Positions 23,054 to 64,000 of a stretch of 64,000 nucleotides of DNA are shown here, piece after piece (positions within the stretch are counted from its first letter, which is position 1; each line of letters opens with the position of its first letter). The notes under the pieces were generated by a model. The model was not told the origin of the DNA. It did no database searches and saw only the letters and a program-made list of their open reading frames with translations. This stretch comes from Eublepharis macularius. Taxonomy: Eukaryota; Chordata; Lepidosauria; Squamata; Eublepharidae. The DNA lies in NCBI RefSeq assembly GCF_028583425.1, contig NC_072807.1:34167001-34231000 (forward strand). Direction: 5' to 3'. A program made the position numbers and the translations under genes.

Positions 23054-23961
23054 ATGTCATCCCAGAACAATCAAGCTCTCCACAAATGGAATAAGCCGGC
23101 ATTCAGCGAAACGCAAGCTGTCAGCTTGGTCGAACGGGTGTATGGATTCAGCGTCTCTAAAATCAAACCACTTCCCAGCTATGATGATCAAAATTTCCAC
23201 CTGCGTGTAGCTGGCTTGGAAGGGCCTCCAGAGGGCATAGAGGAGTATGTCCTCAAAATCACCAATTGTGAAGACAGTCAGAATCCCAGCCTCATTGAGG
23301 CGCAGACGCGGATCATGATGTTTCTGAGCGCTGAAGGTTTTCCCGTGGCCACCCCACGTTTCACCACGCATGGAGAAATAATGTTTCTCAAATCTATAGG
23401 TGAGAGACTCAGAAGTACTGCTATTGTGATTCTCTTAGAAGAAACATGGACGGAGCTATGGTTGTCCGTCTTCAGATGTTTCAGTGCCTCAGGAAGTTTG
23501 CTTACAAAAATCATTTTAAAGAGACGATGTGGTGTAATAGTTAAGAGCAGAAGATAAGGACCTGGTAGAGCCAGGTTCAAATCCCCACTAGTCATGAAAC
23601 TCATTGAGGTGACCTTATCAAAGACATTCTCTCTCAGCCTAACCTACCTTGCAGGGCTGTTGTGAGGATAAAAAAAAACAGGAAAGAGAGAACTGTGTAC
23701 AAAATACTGTGCCCCTTGGAGGGGCCACAAGAAGAGCCCTACTGGAGTAAACCAGTGGTCCATTTTGTCCAGCACTTTGTCTCATACAGTAGCCACCCAG
23801 TTGCCCTGGTGGGCCAATGATGGGGGCATAGAGGCCTTGATCTTCATTGGGTGGCCACCCAAATGTATTGTTATATTGTATTTTATGCTTTTAATGCTGT
23901 TTCTATTGTAATTTCATTATTTATGTTGTAATCCGCTCTGAGCCCGGTTGTGGGGAGAGGA

Positions 23962-24028
<67 letters not shown>

Positions 24029-26965
24029 GTTGCCACCTAGCGCTGGTATCCAGAGGCTTACAGTGAGAGGGCAGAATAAATATGTACAAGAAGATGATAC
24101 TAGATTCAGCTTTCCTGAGTTACTACACCTGAGTAGTGGTGTAGTCGTTAAAAGTGTTAGACTAAGTTAGACCATTTCAAATTCCCACTCTCAAGGAATG
24201 ACTTGGGGCCAGTTATACCCTCTCAGCCTAACCTACCCCACAGGGTCATTGTGCGGATAAAAAGGAAGAGGACAGAATGATGTAAGCCATTTTGGGTATC
24301 CACTGGGGAGAAAAAAGAGGGGTACAAATGAAGTAAAAAAATAACAGTTTGTTCAGAGAATCTTACTTACAGGCAACAGAAATGTAGCTGTCATGTATTC
24401 TGGGCAATTCAGGTGGCCCTGCCAAAGGTAACCTCAGGCGGGAGATTTTGAGTGCCACTAAGTGTGGTACAGCAGGAGCCACAGATCCACAGGGTACAAT
24501 CCATCAACAGAAGTGTGAGAGCCCCCCGTTAGTTGTACCCTGCACGTACTGCTTCTTTGGACCTTATAAGAGGTTGCAAAAACACCAATGCAGAAGCAGC
24601 GTGCGGTTCATGGGATGGATTGTAGGCTAATATCAAGATAGAAGTGTTTCCCAAATAGGAATGCTGTTCCTTCTTTCTAATAAGTGACATGTACACCCCT
24701 CTTGTTGCCTTTTAGATATTGGCTCAGCCACCATAGGCTACATGGTGAGGCTGCTGACCTATCTGCCAGGCCAACCGTTGGCAACCAACCCCGTGAGTCC
24801 TCCCATTCTGTATGAGGTTGGACAGCTAGCTGCCAAGCTGGATAAAACACTTGCTGAGGTGAGGTTTAGAGCTGGCATTCAGGGGGACGCTTCCCTATTC
24901 TGAGTCTGGCGCTTTACCAGCCAAACGTTAGCCCACCGCCATTCTCCCTCCAGGATTCTCTAAACTCTACTTGAACAGGTCTGGTTTTTACTCTCCTCTT
25001 TTCCCTTTGGAGATTCTTAGCTGCTGTCAGTATTTTGTGCCTCCAGGAGCCTATTCAATGTTCACCAGGCTAGGTTTTCCTCTTTCGGTTCATTCAAAAC
25101 TTCATACTTTTTTTTTCTTCATGAAAGACATGTATTTCCATCAGTTTCTCTGACACATCCGAACCATATCCTTAATATTGGGAATTTGATAATGTTGTCA
25201 TCCTGCCAGCTGGTGTTTTGAATCCCACCATCCGTCATTTCTTACAAGGAGCTCAGAGTACACACACCTCCCCTCCTCTGTTTCATCTTCCCGATTATCC
25301 TGTGAGGTAGTTGAGGCTGAGAGGAAGACAGCAACTGGACCAAAGTCATCAAGAACAGAATGGGTTTTGGACCTAGGTATCCCTGTCCCAGCACAACACT
25401 CTAGCTGTTACACTACACTGCCTTGGCCATCAGTGACACTGACACGGTGTGCTGTGTAAGCTGCAGAAATACAACCGGATATATAACTTTTTTCCTGCAG
25501 AGATTCCATCACCCATCGACAAAACATCTGCATCGAGACAAGTTCATCTGGAATCTGGCAAACGTTCCTCTTCTGGAGCAGTACATTCCAGCACTGAACC
25601 AGAATAGAGATCTTGAAGTCGTGAAGCAGGTTATCCAACAATTCAAGCTTAAAATAGTGCCAAAGCTAAGCAACTTCCGGCCCTGTAAGTATTGACAATT
25701 GCATTGCTTAGCATCCTGTAAGTACTGCCTTCTTTTGCTTGATTGTACATGCGTGTGAGGAAAATTCTAATTGCTCTTGTGTATTTGGGTCCCAAACCAG
25801 ATTAATTAATTTATATTCTGATTTTCTCCCCATGGGAACCCCAAGTGGCTGGTAATACCCCTCCCTCAGTACAAAACAGGAGCAGGTCAAACCCTGAAAA
25901 GCTTGTTGGTCTCTAAGGTGCCACTGGACTCACATCCTACAATTAAAAAAAAAAGGCAGAAGGGAGAAAGACTTCTGAATGCAAAGCACATTTTTCTGTC
26001 TCTCCCTGTCCTGGCAGCAATTCCTCCCTGCTCTAGGCTAGGATCTTTAGGCTAATAGCTGAAGAAAAAGAAGTAAAGTTGCCAACTCCAGGTTGGGACA
26101 TTCCGGGAGATTTGAGGTGGAGCCAGGGCAGGGTGGCATTTCAAGAAGGAAAGTTGTTCAGCAGGGATGTGATGTCGTAGAGTCCACTCGCCAAAGCAGC
26201 CAGCCGTTTTCCCTACAGGATCTTTGTTGTGTTGCAATCAGTTGTAATTCCGGGAGAACTCCAGGCCCCACTTGAAGGTTGGCAACCCTTGGCATTCCCA
26301 GTAAGCAGAGGAGAAGAAACTGAGTCAGATCTTACATAGCTGCTACTAGCCAGCTAGCAGGATCTTTCCAGCTTCCTCCCCTGCCTGATTAATGCATGGA
26401 AAAGAAATGGATTACAGCCTCTGTGATATTGTCATCTTCCTCTGAAGCACTGGGAAATTGCTGGCCACGACCGGACAGGATACTGGGTTAGACATTTCAA
26501 TTTTTTGTTCTGCTTCTAGGTATTAATCACGGAGACCTCAATGATCACAATATCTTATTGGATACAGATTCTGGTTCCCCTCAAAGTCCACGCTACAGAG
26601 TATCGGGTATTTTGGACTTCGGTGACATGAGCTATGGCTATTATGTGTTTGAAGTTGCAATAACTATCATGTACATGATGATTGAAAGCAAGGATCCGCT
26701 CAGCGTGGGAGGGCACATCCTTGCGGGGTTTGAAAGTATCATCCCCTTGACAGCCGAGGAGCGAGGTGCCCTCTTTCTCCTCGTAAGCGGAAGATTCGCT
26801 CAGTCTCTAGTGATGGCCGCGCACACCATTCTGCTGCATCCCGAGAACGAAGAGTATTTAATGATCACTTCCAAAACGGGATGGAAACACTTAGTGAAAC
26901 TGTTCGAAATGGGCCAGGAAGCCATGGAGAATATCTGGTTTGAAACGGCAAAAAGATATACCTGA
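23054..26965 (+). CDS. HYKK: Hydroxylysine kinase (AGPHD1), complete
   Basis: Four coding exons: 23054-23399, 24716-24858, 25501-25684, 26520-26965 (TGA). They give 372 aa against 373 in human. The enzyme phosphorylates 5-hydroxy-L-lysine using GTP in collagen-lysine breakdown (established for the family). It has the aminoglycoside-phosphotransferase kinase fold. Seen: VLKI in the N-lobe (likely the phosphate-binding Lys), the catalytic loop [10 protein letters not shown] straddling the start of exon 4, and the metal-binding [13 protein letters not shown]. The start is the first ATG of an open frame that matches the family N-terminus (MSS...), and the sequence [11 protein letters not shown] follows as expected. 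All junctions are GT-AG and phases close. HYKK lies between IREB2 and PSMA4 on the same strand, as in human. Confidence 0.97.
23521..23725 (+). repeat. tRNA-derived SINE, HYKK intron 1
   Basis: A-box-like GATGTGGTGTAATAGTTAAG, B box CAGGTTCAAATCC, body TCAGCCTAACCTACCTTGCA, then an A-rich stretch. The 3' tail is short. Confidence 0.75.
23860..23960 (+). repeat. L2/CR1-style 3' tail
   Basis: TTTTAATGCTGTTT, GTTGTAATCCGCTCTGAGCC and TTGTGGGGAGAGG are typical of the 3' end of L2/CR1-mobilised repeats in reptiles. It runs directly into the ATG microsatellite, which probably grew from the repeat's own tail. Confidence 0.55.
23961..24028. repeat. (ATG)n microsatellite
   Basis: Pure GAT/ATG trinucleotide run of about 22 units. 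It produces meaningless poly-Ser/poly-Met/poly-Asp frames. Confidence 0.97.
24130..24343 (+). repeat. tRNA-derived SINE, HYKK intron 1
   Basis: Head AGTGGTGTAGTCGTTAAAAG, body TCAGCCTAACCTACCCCACA, and tail GGTACAAATGAAGTAAAAAA. About 200 bp, same family as 23521. Confidence 0.75.
25235..25430 (-). repeat. tRNA-derived SINE, minus strand, HYKK intron 2
   Basis: Minus-strand SINE with B-box complement GGACCTAGGTATCCC region and body words complement to TTATCCTGTGAGGTAG. It ends 70 bp before the acceptor of exon 25501-25684. Confidence 0.65.
25893..25945 (+). repeat. Family-1 repeat fragment
   Basis: Contains GCTTGTTGGTCTCTAAGGTG and CCACTGGACTCAC, the conserved right-hand portion of family 1. 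Confidence 0.6.
26072..26293 (+). repeat. TIR-type repeat (family G), full length
   Basis: Left end AAAGTTGCCAACTCCAGGTT and right end CTTGAAGGTTGGCAACCCTT are inverted copies of each other. The centre has GAGTCCACTCGCCAAAGCAG. About 220 bp, consistent with a short non-autonomous DNA element. Confidence 0.75.
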
Positions 26966-30657: not shown

Positions 30658-38791
<8,134 letters not shown>

Positions 38792-43734: not shown

Positions 43735-44060
43735 GCGAGGCGGGGGGCGTGTTTGTTGTGGGCGGGGCGTCCCGCCTTTCCTCCTCCCCGTGGGGGGCGT
43801 GGCCTCGGCGGCGGCCGTTGGGCGCGCGTTGCGGCTTTCCCGGCGCTGAGGCGATGGCGGGGCGAAGCCGGCGCGGTGCCCTGCTGGCCCTCCTCCGCCT
43901 GCTCCTGCTGCCCCTCGCCCCGGCAGCCGAGCCGGGCAGCCGCCGCGCCCCCTCTCCGGGTGAGTCGACACGCGTGCAGCTCTGGGGCTCGTGTGAAGGC
44001 AGGTTCAACCCGGGCACGGGCTGCGGCTCCCCTCCTTTGCCTCTCCGTGGGGGGAAAGCT
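43735..44060 (+). promoter_or_regulatory. CpG island and promoter of CHRNA5
   Basis: Abrupt rise in GC and CpG around CHRNA5 exon 1. A GC box of Sp1 type, GTGGGCGGGGCG, lies near 43757-43768, and GGGGGCGTGGCC near 43793. No TATA box is seen at a plausible distance. Beyond 44100 the DNA becomes extremely AT-rich. Confidence 0.7.
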
Positions 44061-50000: not shown

Positions 50001-53000
50001 CTTAGCAGTCTACATTATCTTCTTGCTGCTTTCATTTGCATTATCATAGCTGGGATGAGAGAGAGCACAGCTGAATACGGAGGCAGCCAGCCATCTGCCG
50101 GGTGCCCTTCTTGCAGGTTGTTTGGCAGCCCCTCCAGGGTTAGCAGCTGGAACCGGTGTTCTATTTGTGAAGTAAGCGTGTAAGTTGAATGGAAGCACTT
50201 TGAGGTGTAGAATCCCAGGGCATCGTCCTAAGCACAATGCTGCCAGGTCTGGTACATCTGACAAGCAAATGTGCAGAAGAGAAAGCTGCAGGCCTTAACT
50301 TTCTACCAACCCTGTTTTGCTCTAGGCAAACTTCAGTAGACAAATCTGTCAGTTTGATAAGTGCAGTTCCTTTGTCTATTTGGTGCTTTCTTTTCTTTCA
50401 CCTCTATTGCGGTAAATTTTTAGTTACAAGAAAGCGGGGGAGAGGATATGTAGGCGGCAGTGTGTGTGCTTTTGTAAGACTATATTGAAGCTCTTTTACC
50501 TTTTGTGCAGGTACAGCGGAGCCTTCCTTTATTGCGAAAAGTGAAGACCGTTTGTTCAAGCACTTATTTGAAGACTATGAAAGATGGGTCCGCCCCGTGG
50601 AACGCTTGAACGATACCATCAAAGTGAAGTTTGGCCTTGCCATTTCCCAGCTGGTGGATGTGGTATGTTAGAAAATTCTGCTGGTGCTATACTGTTAATT
50701 AAGAAACGCAGGAATTTCAGTGCAAAATACATTGATTCTTGGAGACAAGTGGTCTTACGAACACGACTAGCCTTGGCTTCCATCCCCAGACAGAGTATAC
50801 TAGGGCTTAATAACCCTGCAGAAATTTCTCACGTTTGTATGGACGCCTACATCCATGTGTGGAGAAAGTTAATAAGTGTGTTGTACTTAATAGTTGTGAT
50901 AATGGGCAGTCTGCATTTTTGCAGTTCAGCTGAGACTTTTTCCACCTATTCTTAATACAGATGGGGCTGTTCTCCTCTCCCACTCCAGTAGCAGTATAGA
51001 GGATATGCAAGGAATGCATGTGTAAATGCCATTGTTCATACTTACAGGGGTGAGTTGGGGGAAAACGCAGTATGCAATTGGGTCAGGTAGCAATTTTCCT
51101 GAGGCCAGGTTTGTTTGGGATCCTGACAGTGGGCATGGAGTCAGGTCACTGGGTGTGTGTAGGGGGGGAGGTATTTGTGAATTTCCTGCATTGTGCAGGG
51201 GGTTGGACTAGGTGACCCTAGAAGTCCCTTCCAACCCTGTGATTCTATGATTCTGTCTATAACTTAGCACCTCCTGTTATAGTGCATCGCTCAAACAGAC
51301 AAGGTGAAGATCTCATTCTATCCATAAAATGCAAATTGCAAGCTCATGTAGCCTCAATTTGCCTTGTCCCCAGACGAGAAAGATTAACCTTTCAACTTCT
51401 ACTCAGTTTTGCTGTTCGAATTAACATTTTAAAGGGGACAAATGTGATTTAAAGGTTACGTCTTTTCTCTTTTACAAGGAGCCTAGTTCCAAATAGCGAT
51501 ACAGCGTACAGGTTGAAGAGTTAATAGATTTGCAGGTCAGTATTAGATTGCTGGCTCCAGTTGATAACTATAGAATATACGGCACGTGCTTGTCTTGAAA
51601 TGTGAAATGCTTGTGAAATCTTTTTTTAAAAATAGGATGAGAAAAACCAGCTGATGACGACAAATGTTTGGCTGAAGCAGGTGAGTGTGGTATGCTGTGG
51701 AAATGTTTATCGTAACTGTTCATGATGTTTGGGGCGATGCTGAATCTTATCCCTGGATCGGATCACTGAGATACAAACTCTCTGTTACGAGTGTCCAATC
51801 TTGCTACCTTACAAGAGTCGCAAATCAGGCATTGCAGCCAATTAAAAGGCAAATTAGCTTCTAAAAAATGCTTGCTTGTGTGCTTAACTTGCTTGAAAAG
51901 ACTTTTATTTGCATGCTGTAAAACATCCCCAGAGAGAAATCCTGCTTCGCATAGTTAACAAGAAGAAAAACAGGGAGAAAAATGCTTTGTTATTTTTGTA
52001 CTGGAAGAAATGATGCCTAATTCTGTTGATGTAATTTGTAGCAATTTCCTGTTCTGTTTCCTTTGGTTTTTCAAAATTTATCTGAAACAACTGAGAGTGT
52101 GTCCCATTGTGATTGTATCTAGGGGTTTTATGTGTATTGGTGGTGACTAAGAAAAATGACTATTGCAGTCAGTAAATGTAATTTTTAAAAAGTGTTGAGT
52201 CTCAGATGTTGCATTATGTACTGCCTGTTTCAGATTAATCATCATCAACTTTACTGCGTTGGTCCAAAGCCTTAGCAAACAACATTAAAAGAAAACAGAC
52301 AGTCCAAATAATCACAGTAAGAATTAAAACCCATAAAATATCAATTAAAATAAAAAACGTAATAAATGTTTGATATCAAGACCGTTAGTAACAAGAAGAA
52401 AACATACAAAATTAATAACTTGCTGTCCTATTGTGATACATCACAAATTGTCGCAGCAGACTTATGGCGACACCAAGGAGCTTTCAAGACAAAATAGACT
52501 GAGTTACTTTTTAAAAACATTTCTCGTTTCTCTTTATAGGAGTGGGTTGATGTGAAACTGAAATGGGACCCTAAAGACTATGCAGGAATAACATCTATCC
52601 GTGTCCCTTCGGAGTCTATATGGATTCCAGATATAGTTTTATATGACAAGTAAGCATTTCTTGTTTTACTATATAATCATTATGGACATGCCAAAGGCTT
52701 GTGACATCACATCAGAGAATTTTAATGAAAGGAGCTTTATTCTTACACTGCTAGAGTAAAGAACCTTGGTATAAGGTTCATTTAAACAAAAAAGTAATAC
52801 TCATCCTCAGAAGATATTCCATCATTTTAAACTATTTGCAGATGAATGTATAAAAGTAACAAGTTTGTTGTTGTATATATCAAGCAGTGCAACAGACCTT
52901 CCTGTAGAACATCACCCGAGTGATTTGTTCCATATTTTTGAGTGGCACATCACGTGGGGTAGGGTGTCCCTTTGTGTTTTCCCTTTCTTTCTCTACAGCT

Positions 53001-56000
53001 CAAAGATTATAGGATTTCAATTCATCTCTAATTTACCAAAGAGGAAATAATTTTGCATGAGCAAAATTGAAATGCAGTAAGAGCCAACAGATTTGTGTTA
53101 CGGTTAGGAAGGGAGGAAGAGTGACTTTCCTTGCTGGGAACTCCCTTAGACCAAGTTTTCCCTGGAAAGCACTCGCGTATCTATCTCCTGAGAACATCTA
53201 GACTGACCTGATGAAAACGTGAGAGAAGAAAAATAGTTCCTGTTACTGTTCTGCTAATGCTTTCTCAGGATATGACACAAGAGTTCTTGCACTGGTATAG
53301 TAGGTAGGTTCTCTAGATGATCTCTGTGCTTCCACTTTCACAAAGGGCCACAGGATTTTCTGTGTCTGTCGAAGAACATATTAAGGTTTATCTTCATTTT
53401 TCTTACATAAAATTTCCACAGAAAGGTCAATAGTAGTTTGCACAAGGGCGCTTTTTGATCCAACCCACTGAAATCTGAGCAAAATGGAAGCAGTACTGCT
53501 AGTGCAAGCCTGGGATGTATTTAATCCTTGCAACAGAAGATGGTGTCCCAAATGCACATTCTGGGTACAATTGCATTTGCAAGCCTTGCAGCTGTATCAT
53601 GTTGGTGGTTGCTTTGTAGTTTTATGATGAATCAAACTGAAGACCACTGGCCCAAGCAATGTTAACTCAGTTTCAAAATTCTGTGTCACCTATTCATTCA
53701 TTCAGTTATTTATTTTAAACATTTTAATTCCATCATTCCACACAGTTTAGGATTCCCAAGACAGAAAACAATCAAAAACATTAAAACAAGCTTTTGAAAT
53801 GTATAGTATAAAAACAATTAAAAACAGCAAATAAACACAATGTAAGAACAATTAAAACACATGCAGAGGATGGAGTATGTGTTGAAACCTAACAGTGCAT
53901 ATGATTAGCTTGCAAGTTAAGAGTGCCACAAATGTTGGGAAGCAACTGTGTAAAGTGGAAGCTTTTCCTGTAGAATAGATCCATTTCAGCATGTTACATA
54001 TTTCATACTATTTGCATAATTTTTTTTCCAGTGCAGATGGTCGTTTCGAAGGCACATCGACCAAGACTGTAGTGAAACACGATGGCACTATTGCTTGGAC
54101 TCCACCTGCAAATTACAAAAGCTCCTGTACCATCGACGTCACTTATTTTCCATTTGACCTTCAAAACTGCTCCATGAAATTTGGCTCCTGGACGTACGAT
54201 GGCTCACAAGTGGATATCATACTAGTGGATGATGAAGTTGACAAGAGAGACTTCTTTGATAATGGAGAATGGGAAATAGTAACTGCGACTGGGGTCAGAA
54301 GGAACAGGACGGACGGGTGTTGCTGGTACCCATTTATCACATACTCATTTATCATCAGACGCTTGCCTCTTTTTTATACCCTATTCCTCATTATTCCCTG
54401 TATAGGGTTGTCTTTCTTAACTATCCTCGTCTTCTACCTTCCATCTTACGAAGGCGAGAAAATTTCTCTGTGCACTTCAGTGCTGGTGTCCTTGACAGTC
54501 TTTCTTCTTGTTATCGAAGAGATCATACCGTCATCATCTAAAGTTATTCCACTTATCGGCGAGTATTTGGTGTTCACAATGATTTTTGTGACTTTATCCA
54601 TCGTGATCACTGTATTCGCTATTAACGTTCACCACCGATCCTCGTCTACACACACTGCAATGGCGCCTTGGGTCCGCAAAATATTTCTTCATCAACTCCC
54701 CAAACTGCTTTGTATGAGAAGCCACATAGATCGGTATTGTACTCCGAAAGAGGAAACCGATAATCCCGATGGATCAGAGGCCTCGAGGAATACCTTGGAA
54801 GCAGCCTTAAATTCTATCCGCTACATTACGAGGCACATTGTCAAGGAGAATGAAGTACATGAGGTGTGTGCAATGAGTCACGATGCGGTCATCGGATGAG
54901 GTCAGAAGTTTGAAAGAGAAGCACATAAAGTTGCTTGGATCATAGGTGCTAAAATATGCTCCTTTTTGGCAACTTAATCTCAAGGATAATTAATCTTCCC
55001 CTGCCTCCCCATACTGTAACTGGTCCTCAGAATAATGGTGCTTGCATTATGGAAAGCGCAAAACTAGGACTCTTTTTCTGCTTTTTATTTCCACTGCTGG
55101 CATCTTTTGGATTGGGAGAATCTGTTACTGCAGAGGAGAGGATGTGTGTTCATTCTACAATACCACTGAGGAGCTAATTCCTGCCTGCATCTATTCATAG
55201 GGCATCCAAACAACACGTCCAACATTAGAAGTAGAACATAAGACTGCTCCAATTCAGTTTGAGAATCAGGCTGTAACATGTGATGCTCCATCGTATAAAT
55301 GATTCACGTGTCAAACAGCAGTCTAATTTGGAGGGGGGGATCACTTTACAGTGCTTGCATTTATAAGACAGGCTAGTGTGTTTGACCAAGTAAATCAAGA
55401 AACATTTCGATTGTTATTTTAACTAGGCCAGTTACGTTGGTGGGAGAAATCAGGAAGCTTTTGAGTTTACAGAAAGGGAAGAAAACTGGGGACTCATTCT
55501 GTGCAATTTAAAAGCTCAGTTGGCCTGTTACTCTGGAGCCTGAACATTTAGTTCATGAGAAATATATTAAATAATGCGGCTGTGGCATCTGTAAGATCAT
55601 CTAGCATTTGTGTTCTTTCTTAAAGCAAGAACAGAAATATATCTGGCATTTTTTGAGGCTTCCTTAATGATGTTTTAAATATATTTGATGGGTGATAACT
55701 TACTTCATTTATACTCTGGTTTTCTCACCAGTATGGGGGATCCAAAGCTTCTTACAGCTTTGCCTCCATTTTATCCTGGCAATAATCTTGCGAAGTAAGT
55801 TAGGCTGAGAGTGTGATACCTAGCAAGCTTCCATAGAGCAGTGGGGATTCAAACCTGGGTTTCCCTGATCCTAGTCTGACATTCTAACCACCATGACATC
55901 CCTCATACAAGAGATTTAGCATCTTTTTTAAAAAAGCAAATTTCTGTTTCCTAAGTCGTCAGTGGCAGTTGAAGGCTTCCACGTGGAGCTTTCCCTCCAG

Positions 56001-56530
56001 TTATTTTTTTCCCCAACATATGGAGCAGAGGTCCATCAGTGGCTATTTAGCCACAAGGTATAGATGGAACTCTCTGTCTAGGGCAGTGATGCTCTGTGTT
56101 CTTGGTGTTTGGGGGGGGCAATCAGTGGGAGGGCTTCTAGTGTCCCTTCCCCACTGGCAGACCTCCTGAGGACACCTGGGTTTTGGCCACTGTGTGACAC
56201 AGAGTGTTGGACTGGATGGGCCATTGGCCTGATCCAACATGGCTTCTCTTATGTTCTTATGTCTAGTGCAGTTTGTGCCTGAATAATAACACATGTTTTC
56301 AAGTAAACTGAAGTGCGTGTATTTTGAAAGTACTTCTAACTTTTCTTATTCTCTCTTTTGTTTTTTAGGTGGTTGAAGACTGGAAATTTATAGCTCAGGT
56401 CCTTGACCGCATGTTCTTATGGACATTTCTTCTCGTTTCAATTATTGGATCTCTGGCACTATTTATTCCTGTAATTCATAAATGGGCAAGCATAATAGTA
56501 CCAGTCCACATTGGGAACACAAACACATAA
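43854..56530 (+). CDS. CHRNA5: Neuronal nicotinic acetylcholine receptor subunit alpha-5, complete
   Basis: Six exons: 43854-43959, 50511-50662, 51636-51680, 52540-52649, 54032-54863, 56369-56530 (TAA). They give 468 aa, the same length as human. It is an accessory subunit of pentameric cation channels with alpha-3/alpha-4 and beta-2/beta-4 in neuronal membranes. Seen: an N-terminal hydrophobic leucine-rich signal (about residues 9-23); the Cys-loop C170-C184; the vicinal cysteine pair C234-C235 that defines alpha subunits, without the YxCC aromatic of ligand-binding alphas (GCCWYP); four membrane segments (M1 from RRLPLFYT, M2 after GEKISLC, M3 [11 protein letters not shown]4 in exon 6); and N-glycosylation motifs NCS (183) and NRT (229). 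The start is the ATG in a GC-rich first exon within the CpG island. Residue 398 is Asn (AAT at 54810-54812), where human has Asp. Confidence 0.98.
44110..45540. repeat. AT-rich degenerate satellite in CHRNA5 intron 1
   Basis: About 1.4 kb built from ATT/TTA/ATA words. Recurring landmarks (variants of ACATTCCATAATGCTGGC, TAATGCTGATACAGCTGTAT and TTATAGTTACACTTAGGTTA) recur at roughly 80-bp or 160-bp spacing between about 44725 and 45245. The 5' portion (44110-44360) is simpler (ATT)n-like sequence. A family-1 repeat is inserted at 45372-45460. No open frame of note. Confidence 0.75.
45372..45460 (-). repeat. Family-1 repeat inserted in the satellite
   Basis: AAAGAGTCCAGTAGCACCTT, AAGACTAACCAATTTTATT and GCATAAGCTTTCGAGAATC are the inverse of the 29652 copy. 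The hammerhead-like core is truncated at the far side. Confidence 0.7.
45541..50510 (+). other. Rest of CHRNA5 intron 1
   Basis: Apart from the SINE at 46835-47040 I recognise nothing coding or repetitive with confidence. The open frames here show no family features. Confidence 0.5.
46835..47040 (-). repeat. tRNA-derived SINE, minus strand, CHRNA5 intron 1
   Basis: Minus-strand SINE: tail complement at TTCATTTGTACCTTGTCTTT, body CACAACAACCCTGAGAGG, and B-box complement GGGAGTTGAACCTGG. Confidence 0.75.
51075..51258 (+). repeat. CR1 LINE 3' end
   Basis: ATTTCCTGCATTGTGCAGGG, GGTTGGACTAGGTGACCCT and CCCTTCCAACCCTGTGATTC, followed by the ATTCTATG-type terminal repeat, are the hallmark CR1 3' end. 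It is 5'-truncated, as usual for CR1, and lies in CHRNA5 intron 2. Confidence 0.9.
52650..54031 (+). other. CHRNA5 intron 4
   Basis: 1.4 kb intron; 53700-53860 is an A-rich, repeat-like stretch containing a CATTCATTCA run and AAACAATTAAAAACA words. Nothing coding. Confidence 0.5.
54032..54863 (+). other. CHRNA5: CHRNA5 exon 5: ligand-binding domain end, M1-M3 and cytoplasmic loop
   Basis: The 832-nt exon codes for residues 138-415 and holds both the Cys-loop and M1-M3. It ends HE before the donor GTGTGT; the next exon begins VVEDWKF. The M3-M4 loop ends in the amphipathic segment [17 protein letters not shown], in which residue 398 lies. Confidence 0.97.
55705..55905 (-). repeat. tRNA-derived SINE, minus strand, CHRNA5 intron 5
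   Basis: Minus-strand copy with B-box complement GGGGATTCAAACCTGG and body complement CCATTTTATCCTGGCAATAA. It ends about 460 bp before the final exon. Confidence 0.75.
56030..56265 (+). repeat. CR1-type LINE 3' end
   Basis: AGTGTTGGACTGGATGGGCC, ATTGGCCTGATCCAACATGG, then CTTCTCTTATGTTCTTATG with a short terminal tandem. This is the second CR1 subfamily style common in squamates. It ends about 100 bp before the last CHRNA5 exon. Confidence 0.8.
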
Positions 56531-57060
56531 GATGTGTGTGGCTAGAGGCCGAGAGAAACCAGTCTTTCTATGAATGTTAATCATAATTTGACCACTACTT
56601 GTATCTTTAGCACAATTTAACATAGAACGATGAAATCTTTGCAAAGAACCGGTTGGGAGGGGGAGGGGGGATTGTGCTTATATTTAAACCTCAGGCATCT
56701 AAGGACACGGGCAGAACATTCTTCTTGGCTCTTAGCTCATCATTTTTCCTAATAATAAGTCAGGACTGACCAGTGAGGCGTCACGGACTTGATGAGTCCT
56801 CAAGTCAGCAGAATGCACGAGGGGCCGTGCAGAGAGCTTCGCTGAGGGTTGGAGTACAATATAGAACATTCCAGGTATTTAGAGCACATTTGTAAGTCTT
56901 AGCAACCCTTGTAGAAGCCTCGCACCATGGGACAGCCTTAGGATCCTCATGCTGCAGAGGCGGGGCTGAGCACAGCGCCCTCTTTAAAAGCCACCTGGTA
57001 CATTTATGCTTGAAGTCTGATTGACAGAGGGGGCTGTCTTGCTCACAACTGGCACTCTAA

Positions 57061-57396
57061 GAGCCAAAACACACGTTAAGAAATACCTAGATTCAGCACG
57101 TGTTCTCTTACCTCAAGGTTTGCCGGGATCTGTAGGAGTCCTGGAAGCTTAAAGTTTAGCATTTACAGAGCAGCAAAAAGGGGAAGGGAAATACAGGCGC
57201 CTGTATTTTAAGCTTTAAGCTTCCAGGACGCCTTTAAGCTTCCAGGACGCTTACAGATCCTTTAAGCTTCCAGGACTTTAAGCTTCCAGGACCCCTACAG
57301 ATCTTTAAGCTTCCAGGACGCCTACAGATCCCGGCAAACCTTGAGGTAAGAGAACACATGCTGAACCTAGGTATTTCTTAACGTGTGTTTTGGCTC
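57061..57396. mobile_element. Long-TIR MITE, Harbinger-like (family H), recently active in appearance
   Basis: 336-bp element whose outer ~93 bp on each side are inverted copies with only about three mismatches by eye (start GAGCCAAAACACACGTTAAG). Flanking triplets are TAA (57058-57060) and TTA (57397-57399). The centre holds four or five tandem CTTTAAGCTTCCAGGACG-like units. No coding capacity. Confidence 0.8.
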
Positions 57397-57554
57397 TTAG
57401 CCTCTCGCTATATTTGCTCTTGTAGTGTGGCACTGACTGCCATTCCCTCGTGGCAATGCCCACAACTAGTAGTCTGTCAATCTCTCTCCTATGTCATTTC
57501 AGCTTCTGCTGCCTTTGGATGCTCTGTGCCTAACATGCAGCAGCCTTTCAAACA

Positions 57555-59497: not shown

Positions 59498-60050
59498 CTG
59501 GGAGGGGCTGTGGCTCAGAGCTAAACTACAAGAGACGAGTTACACGAGGACGCGCACATGAAGGGAGTCGCAGGGAAGCGGAGTTTTAAAAGACAGATTG
59601 GAAGGCTTTGTCAATTTCCCCTCTCCACAGAGCCCCCAAAGATCACTCCTCAAGGTTTGCTAATTTCCAATTTTTCTCCAGAAGACTCTTGGCAGTTTCA
59701 CCGCCCCTTCTAGGAGGCAAAGAGGAAATTGAAAAAGCCTTCCATCTGTCTTTTAAAACTCGGCTCCCCGGCTAACATTGCGGCTCCCTTCACGTGTGCG
59801 TCCTCGTGCAATTCGTCTCTTGTAGTTTCGCTCTCAGCAACGGAGCAACTTCTCAGCAAACAGAAGGTCCCAGGTTCAGGTTCAATCCCTGGCATTGCCA
59901 GTTTTAAAAAAAGGTCAAGTGGTAAGTGGTGTGATGTGAAAAACCTCTACCTAAGCCCATGGAAAGCTGCTGCCAGTGAGAGTAAATACCAGCCTCGATG
60001 AATGATCTGATTCAGTATCCAAAGGCAACTGTATGTGTGTTCATCTGTAT
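59498..60050 (+). repeat. tRNA-derived SINE split by a Harbinger-like MITE
   Basis: The head GGGAGGGGCTGTGGCTCA lies at 59500-59517 and the rest resumes at 59834 with CAGAAGGTCCCAGGTTCAGG (B-box region), then GGTGTGATGTGAAAAACC, GAAAGCTGCTGCCAGTGAGA and GATCTGATTCAGTATCC. The interruption is the element at 59518-59833. Confidence 0.75.
59518..59833. mobile_element. Harbinger-like MITE (family H relative) nested in a SINE
   Basis: 316-bp element with inverted ends GAGCTAAACTACAAGAGACG and GAGCGAAACTACAAGAGACG; the ~55-bp arms are alike throughout. TCA triplets flank it at 59515-59517 and 59834-59836. Removing the element and one TCA restores a continuous SINE, which supports a 3-bp duplication. 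Confidence 0.8.
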
Positions 60051-61399: not shown

Positions 61400-61528
61400 C
61401 TACACTTCATCTGTAACCATCAAAGGCTGCAGAAATAGTCCAGCTGTTCCCAGAATACACACAAGAATAAAAACCCACAGAAAAATGCGGTCAATCACCA
61501 TGGCGACGTATTTCCAATCATCTTGAGT
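61400..61528 (-). other. CHRNA3: CHRNA3 last exon (M4 and C-terminus)
   Basis: 43 codons including the stop, preceded by acceptor TTTTTCAG on the minus strand. It starts [16 protein letters not shown] and encodes M4. It joins exon 5 in phase 0. Confidence 0.95.
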
Positions 61529-64000
61529 CTGAAAAACATAAGCAGTCAAATTATATAGAGGCCAGTATTTCTACATACTTAACCTACAGACACAATATTA
61601 GCAACTAACTTTGCATAATAGCAGGAGATCCTTTGAATTCACAAAATCAGCCTAAAGATGGGACGGTATGCATTAATATTGTGACTAAAGATGGGCATGA
61701 ACTGGGGGGGAAATGAACCGTGTGGTTCATGGTTTGTCGCGTTTCACAAACCACGAACTTGCCCTGATTCACAAACTGGTTTGTTTGGTTCGTGAAAACA
61801 TCACTTCCAGGTCAGCAAATCGTCACATCCTGCTCAGCAGAAGGTCTAGAAAGCCCGTCCCCTGTTGCCTAGGAAACTGATCGGTGCCAGGCTGTCTGCA
61901 GTGACGAACCGAAAAACGAACCAAAAAACTGGCCTAAAGTTCATGGAGGTTTGTCAGAAATGGGTTCTGAAGAACTGCCGGTTCGCAAACCATGAACCGG
62001 CCCAGTTCGTGCCAAACTTTGGTCCATATTTCGGTTCGTGCCCATTTCTAATTGTGACACATTGAAATAGTTCCCTACATATATAGCAAGCTACTAAGGG
62101 GTTAAATATGGACACTTCATTTCCCTCCTTACTCCAGCCTCAATGTACATACTCAAACTTATGAGTTGTCCTGTGTCTCGTTCACATTTCGTGCCCAAAG
62201 TACCAAAAGTCTTCTGTGTTTTGCTTAAGCTCCTCCTCTTCTCCTCCATATGCATATTTTGAAACACCAGAAGGTAACAGAGGAGCAACCTTGCCGGATC
62301 AGACCAGTGGTCTCGTCCAGTGTCCCCGACCCTTTAGGCCAAAGAGATGCCCCTAGAAGGCCTACACACGAGGCGTAAAGGTCAAAGTCTCCACCTGATG
62401 TTGTTCCCTAGCACTAGTAGATTTCCTGCCTTGAAAAGGCTTCTAGGTTGCTTTCACATTTCTGTGCTGCTCAGGCATTTCTTTGCTACTAGTAGAAGCT
62501 GTGATTCAATGTAGCACTTAAGAGGGCACTATAAAAATCAAGCTACACTTGTCTCTAAGGCAAGCTCCTACTGTATGTTTACTTGGAAGCAAGTCCTGTT
62601 CTGAAAGGGCCCCTCTACATTTTTGCTTCTCTCTGCTGAGTATTTTTGATGGGGGGCGAGAATGTTTAAACCCCCTTCCCTCAATACTGGGGCTCCCATC
62701 CAGTTTGTTCCATATAGCTGCATTTTAAGGCCCAATTCCACACTCGGAGTGTTCATCATGTTGCTCAACATGAAGTATAGTTTGGTCTAAGTGAGGTTTT
62801 GAGCCTGTGTTTGGGCCGTTGTGCCTCATCTTGCTCACATGACCGAATGCTCCTCCGTATGTACAAATCATATAGAACACTATGTTAGAAGGATGTGTCC
62901 TAACCCTGAAATGCTAGTTTTCTACATGGAAGGAAATGTTGTGTATGAGCCGTGCCTGTTTGCTGAAGCAGGTGGGGAAAACTAGGCTTCACCATTTTAA
63001 AAGTATGGCGAATAAAATCAGCTCTTACCTCTTTGGCTTCATTCTGCAGTCTCATGTTTTCTGCAATGTACTTAACGCTCTCGATCGCCTCCCTCATTTC
63101 CGGGGACAGAACTGAAAAGGGAAGCAGAGCGTCCACAGATTCGCAGCTGGAGCTCTGGGTCAAGTTGCTGTTCATCTTCACATATTTAATATGTTGACAC
63201 TGACAACAGCCGCATGCCGCTCCTTGGCACGGGAACCCTTCTCTGCTGGACTTGGTTTCGGAGGTGCTGAGGGAGTTTAAGTGGGAGAGCTCAGCAGTGT
63301 AAAGGGATTTTGGCTTCGGCTCGTCGCCATCTTCGCCAGTCGGCCTCGTCATAAACATGATCCTCGGGAGAAAGTTAAGGAAAATGGTCTTCACCCACTC
63401 GGGCATGGTGTGCGTCCGGGGAGTCCTATAGTGTACATTCAGTACAAAGACGGTGATGACAATGGAGAGCGTGACGAATATCATAGTGAAGAGGAGGTAT
63501 TCCCCTATCAGCGGGATCACCAGAGAGGTAGAAGGAATTGTCTCTGTTATCACCAGGAGGAACACGGTTAACGAAAGAAGGACCGAAATACACAGTGTGA
63601 CTTTCTCGCCACAATCCGAGGGCAGATAGAAGACCAACACGGTTAAAAAGGAGATCAGGAGGCAAGGAATAATCATGTTGATGGTGTAAAACAAGGGCAG
63701 CCGCCTGATATAAAGTGAATAGGTGATATCTGTATAGACGGCTTCGCAGCAGTTGTACTTAATGTCATGTTTATAACCTGGCGCATTAATAATAGCCCAC
63801 TCTCCACTTTCCCAGTAGTCCTTGAGGTTCATCATGGAGCCTACGAGAACCAAGTCTATCTCGGCTTTGTCATAGGACCAAGAGCCAAACTTCATGGTGC
63901 AGTTCTGGTAGTCAAACGGGAAGTAGGTCACGTCTATTTTACAGGAGCTCTTAAATATAGCCGGGGGCATCCAAGTTACGTTACCAGTGTAATTCAATAT
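61400..64000 (-). CDS. CHRNA3: Neuronal nicotinic acetylcholine receptor subunit alpha-3, last two exons, 5' part outside window
   Basis: On the minus strand: exon 5 from the window edge to 63029 (donor GTAAGA) and exon 6 at 61528-61400 (TAG). They give 366 C-terminal residues. It is a ligand-binding alpha subunit of ganglionic receptors, assembling with beta-4/beta-2 and alpha-5. Seen: the Cys-loop from [10 protein letters not shown] to FDYQNC; the loop-C YNCC pair; M1 ([15 protein letters not shown]), M2 ([14 protein letters not shown]), M3 ([12 protein letters not shown]), a long cytoplasmic loop, and M4 in exon 6 (DRIFLWVF). The C-terminus reads PLMVTDEV, where human has PLMAREDA (human sequence from memory). 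Exon 5 runs off the window, so its acceptor and exons 1-4 are not visible. The gene converges on CHRNA5, the order known in mammals and birds. Confidence 0.97.
61686..62050. mobile_element. hAT-type MITE (family A), second copy, intact 8-bp duplication
   Basis: 365-bp element starting TAAAGATGGGCATGAAC and ending with the inverse of TAGAAATGGGCACGAACC. Identical 8-mers ATTGTGAC flank it at 61678-61685 and 62051-62058. The ends match the copy at 2359-2760. The interior repeats GAACCG-like words on both strands. It lies in the last CHRNA3 intron, about 160 bp from exon 6. Confidence 0.9.
62280..62360 (+). repeat. Common squamate interspersed-repeat fragment
   Basis: CAACCTTGCCGGATCAGACC then AGTGGTCTCGTCCAGTGTCC. 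Related pieces lie at about 23740-23830 (TGGAGTAAACCAGTGGTCC) and 9315-9380. Probably CR1-derived. Confidence 0.5.

Follow-up and report, generated by a model that had tools for sequence, protein, structure and literature searches.

Asparagine at the position of human D398N in the CHRNA5 orthologue of Eublepharis macularius

The CHRNA5 gene in this stretch of Eublepharis macularius DNA (64,000 nucleotides, which as a whole we call the window) encodes asparagine at residue 398, where human alpha-5 has aspartate or asparagine (PMC7744819). In the reading that we favor, to which we give a probability of roughly 0.6, this is a working alpha-5 orthologue with a conservative, one-base Asn398, the effect of which would be buffered and milder than that of D398N in humans. 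We present the gene and its neighborhood, the evidence on residue 398, the charges that surround it, and the competing readings.

CHRNA5 and its gene neighborhood

Six CHRNA5 exons, found downstream of two syntenic neighbors, can be spliced into a 1407-base coding sequence that encodes 468 aa and a stop, with GT/AG borders and no internal stops. The features on this strand are as follows.

23100..26965 (extent approximate), plus strand: HYKK-like exons, a syntenic neighbor, from sequence matches
32190..37520 (extent approximate), plus strand: PSMA4 exons, a syntenic neighbor, from motif matches
43854..43959, plus strand: CHRNA5 exon 1, with ATG start codon, signal peptide and GT donor
50511..50662, plus strand: CHRNA5 exon 2, with AG/GT borders and an open frame
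51636..51680, plus strand: CHRNA5 exon 3, with AG/GT borders and an open frame
52540..52649, plus strand: CHRNA5 exon 4, with AG/GT borders and an open frame
54032..54863, plus strand: CHRNA5 exon 5, with the Cys-loop, M1-M3, the intracellular loop and the first part of the MA helix
54810..54812, plus strand: AAT codon, Asn398 of CHRNA5, the site of human rs16969968 (D398N)
54858..54860, plus strand: CAT codon, His414 of CHRNA5
56369..56530, plus strand: CHRNA5 exon 6, with the end of the MA helix, M4 and the stop

The sequence-only reading had arrived at 468 aa by counting back from the stop. That length is correct for the six spliced exons, but it requires exon 6, which is present at 56369-56530, since after HEV the exon 5 frame stays open into the intron. 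Exon 5 matched nicotinic subunits in the PDB (E about 1e-93), and the protein contains the Pfam ligand-binding (PF02931, E 6.7e-75) and membrane (PF02932, E 1.1e-57) domains. The Cys-loop (Cys170/Cys184) and the alpha-type vicinal pair (Cys234-235) are both present. Going by the open frame and the splice sites, CHRNA5 here is an intact and probably functional gene; a pseudogene was considered and ruled out, with all six of six exons intact.

The gene order in the window is HYKK, PSMA4, CHRNA5 and then CHRNA3 on the opposite strand. This is the well-known CHRNA5 neighborhood and agrees with what we take to be the human order. On the basis of this synteny, the gene is a one-to-one orthologue of CHRNA5. 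The paralogues CHRNB3 and CHRNA3 were ruled out by synteny and by the presence of a distinct CHRNA3 in the window. No alpha-5 chain occurred among the best 60 PDB matches listed, and the assignment to alpha-5 rather than beta-3 uses synteny together with 79% identity to human alpha-5 (78.6%, against a working version of the human sequence).

CHRNA5, CHRNA3 and CHRNB4 are known as a gene cluster (PMC6354393). The same 2019 study of vertebrate nicotinic receptors did not find CHRNA5 or CHRNA3 in the lizard Anolis and found both in turtle (PMC6354393). In our window, by comparison with the absence reported for Anolis, both genes are encoded between 43854 and 64000. As a squamate window, it shows that both CHRNA5 and CHRNA3 exist in squamates. 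Interspersed repeats in the window appear similar to squamate ones.

Residue 398 and its homologous column

In the spliced coding sequence, the codon at 54810-54812 is AAT, confirming the initial claim that CHRNA5 has Asn at residue 398. The residue sits where the MA helix begins, and this helix lines the intracellular vestibule. It had also been argued that the residue is not misaligned, and this holds up: Asn398 is 22 residues from Trp420 (WKF motif, MA/M4 junction), with no gap between them, and the stretch around it is gap-free against the PDB alpha-3, beta-4, alpha-4 and beta-2 chains. Because of this alignment to the four paralogues, position 398 is secure and misalignment is ruled out. 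A single transition separates GAT from AAT, and the exchange of Asp for Asn is conservative; a chance estimate for one residue is meaningless.

Across PDB chains, beta-2 has Asp in the column homologous to 398 and human alpha-3 has Gln, while alpha-4, beta-4 and Torpedo alpha-1 all have Glu; the species of some chains is assumed. Since human alpha-3 has Gln in this column, an uncharged amide is normal in one partner subunit. An alpha-6 chain (8zrn) with Asn near the 398 column was left out, as its helix looked engineered.

The site of D398N has been called ‘conserved across species’ (PMC2556340) and a ‘highly conserved site’ (PMC8568944). Both statements are general, and neither names reptiles. 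Macaques are reported to have a predicted-damaging G>A variant that lifts over to rs16969968 (PMC11755938), and because of it the Asn398 described here is not the first natural non-human instance. Our full-text literature search found no printed alignments of the MA-helix motif around 398, and the bacterial and viral contig collections that we scanned contained no CHRNA5 orthologue DNA as vertebrate contamination.

The gecko state shares its residue, aligned position, gene and cluster with human D398N (rs16969968-A) and with mouse and rat D397N. Unlike human D398N, it is what the reference of another vertebrate carries; the protein as a whole is about 79% identical to the working human sequence, and its partner alpha-3 has Glu in place of the human Gln. 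The macaque variant likewise puts Asn at this site naturally in a non-human species, but it segregates in a primate, whereas here Asn is the reference allele in a reptile (PMC11755938). The Gln of human CHRNA3 is a parallel in that an uncharged amide is tolerated at the homologous MA column of a co-assembling subunit; it differs in belonging to a paralogue with two copies per receptor, which in the window has Glu. The suggestion that this is a natural instance of the human risk residue stands as far as the residue and its orthologous position are concerned, but it does not imply equal function.

Charges around residue 398

Compared with the working human alpha-5 sequence, the MA helix differs by D398N, M408V, D412E and R414H, and the 13-residue stretch around 398 is otherwise identical. 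With R414H offsetting D398N, the 27-residue helix carries a net charge of -3 in the window as in the working human sequence. Identical totals need not produce identical local fields, since 398 is at the vestibule tip and 414 lies nearer the portals. Over residues 369-420, the net charge is -6 in the window versus -3 in the working human sequence, making the wider loop more acidic. We take residue 414 of human alpha-5 to be Arg and to align with the portal arginine of 5-HT3A, at the same helix position.

Alpha-3 is the usual partner of alpha-5, and the alpha3-beta4-alpha5 receptor contains two alpha-3 subunits and one alpha-5. Three features of CHRNA3 fall in the window.

61400..61528, minus strand: CHRNA3 last exon, ending in DEV and the stop
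63029..64000 (runs off the window), minus strand: CHRNA3 large exon with the MA helix, closest to human alpha-3 in 6pv7
63080..63082, minus strand: CHRNA3 GAG codon, Glu, in the column homologous to alpha-5 398 (Gln in human alpha-3)

The animal's CHRNB4, CHRNA4 and CHRNB2 lie outside the window. If beta-4 is unchanged, the ring at the level of 398 would, relative to human, gain two acids from alpha-3 and lose one from alpha-5.

We observed one further difference, in the pore. Residue 283, at the pore-lining 2' position of M2 and encoded in exon 5 (54032-54863), is Ser; its human counterpart is presumably Cys. C283S could weigh more on permeation than residue 398.

Competing readings of Asn398

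In the buffered orthologue that we favor, the acid missing from alpha-5 would be offset by other charges of the helix, and the two Glu-bearing alpha-3 subunits of the alpha3-beta4-alpha5 receptor may also buffer its loss. The change in calcium entry and desensitization would then be smaller than that caused by D398N in an otherwise human receptor, and the effect of Asn398 here is possibly milder than in humans. As a counterpoint, the Glu of alpha-3 may be an ancestral state rather than a response. It is distinctly doubtful that the pairing of alpha-5 Asn with alpha-3 Glu naturally suppresses the effect of the residue that confers risk in humans.

Among the alternatives, the one that survives best is that Asn398 is common in squamates or sauropsids and that the mammalian Asp is one of two ordinary states. 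We regard this as a substantial possibility, though not the probable one; it is compatible with a buffered orthologue and would take away the novelty of the observation. It fits a column that varies among paralogues, conservation statements that leave reptiles unnamed, and a large evolutionary study without a lizard CHRNA5 (PMC6354393), and it runs against the published description of the site as conserved across species (PMC2556340).

Asn398 could instead act like the human risk allele, with less calcium and more desensitization as a fixed natural state, which we think unlikely. The shared residue sits in a helix that over 13 residues shows no other difference, and human and mouse N variants reduce the calcium signal in several systems (PMC7744819). 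However, other helix and loop charges differ, and in the homologous column alpha-3 has an acid here and none in human. The effect of D398N also varies by assay, which makes the step from the same letter to the same effect a weak one: depending on the construct, the human N form has lower calcium permeability and more desensitization in some systems and shows no such effect in others (PMC7744819). The pentameric concatemers of Prevost et al., as far as they are described where cited in PMC7744819, were equal for D and N in potency, efficacy and acute desensitization.

Less likely still, Asn398 may be segregating in the species, or the site may be heterozygous with the A allele kept by the assembly. 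AAT is known here from one haploid reference, the human site is polymorphic and the macaque G>A variant lifts over to the same site (PMC11755938). A sequencing or assembly error is very improbable, as the whole gene is without frameshifts or stops, suggesting good base quality, and the AAT codon lies outside any long homopolymer or repeat.

Asn398 implies no nicotine phenotype or nicotine risk for the animal. If it is fixed in a lineage and the receptor is normal, it would provide a natural test of how much other parts of the receptor, alpha-3 especially, shape the effect of D398N. The pairing of alpha-5 and alpha-3 could also show whether the vestibule acids at the level of 398 act as one shared ring.

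Two inverted repeats were observed in the DNA that flanks CHRNA5. Just downstream of the gene, arms of 98 nt (57057-57154 and 57303-57400) are 97% complementary and 148 nt apart; the region they span, 57057-57400, contains repeated ctttaagcttccaggac units and has the appearance of a hairpin or MITE-like element of recent origin. Between CHRNA5 and CHRNA3, a second pair of 63-nt arms (59510-59572 and 59779-59841) is 87% complementary.
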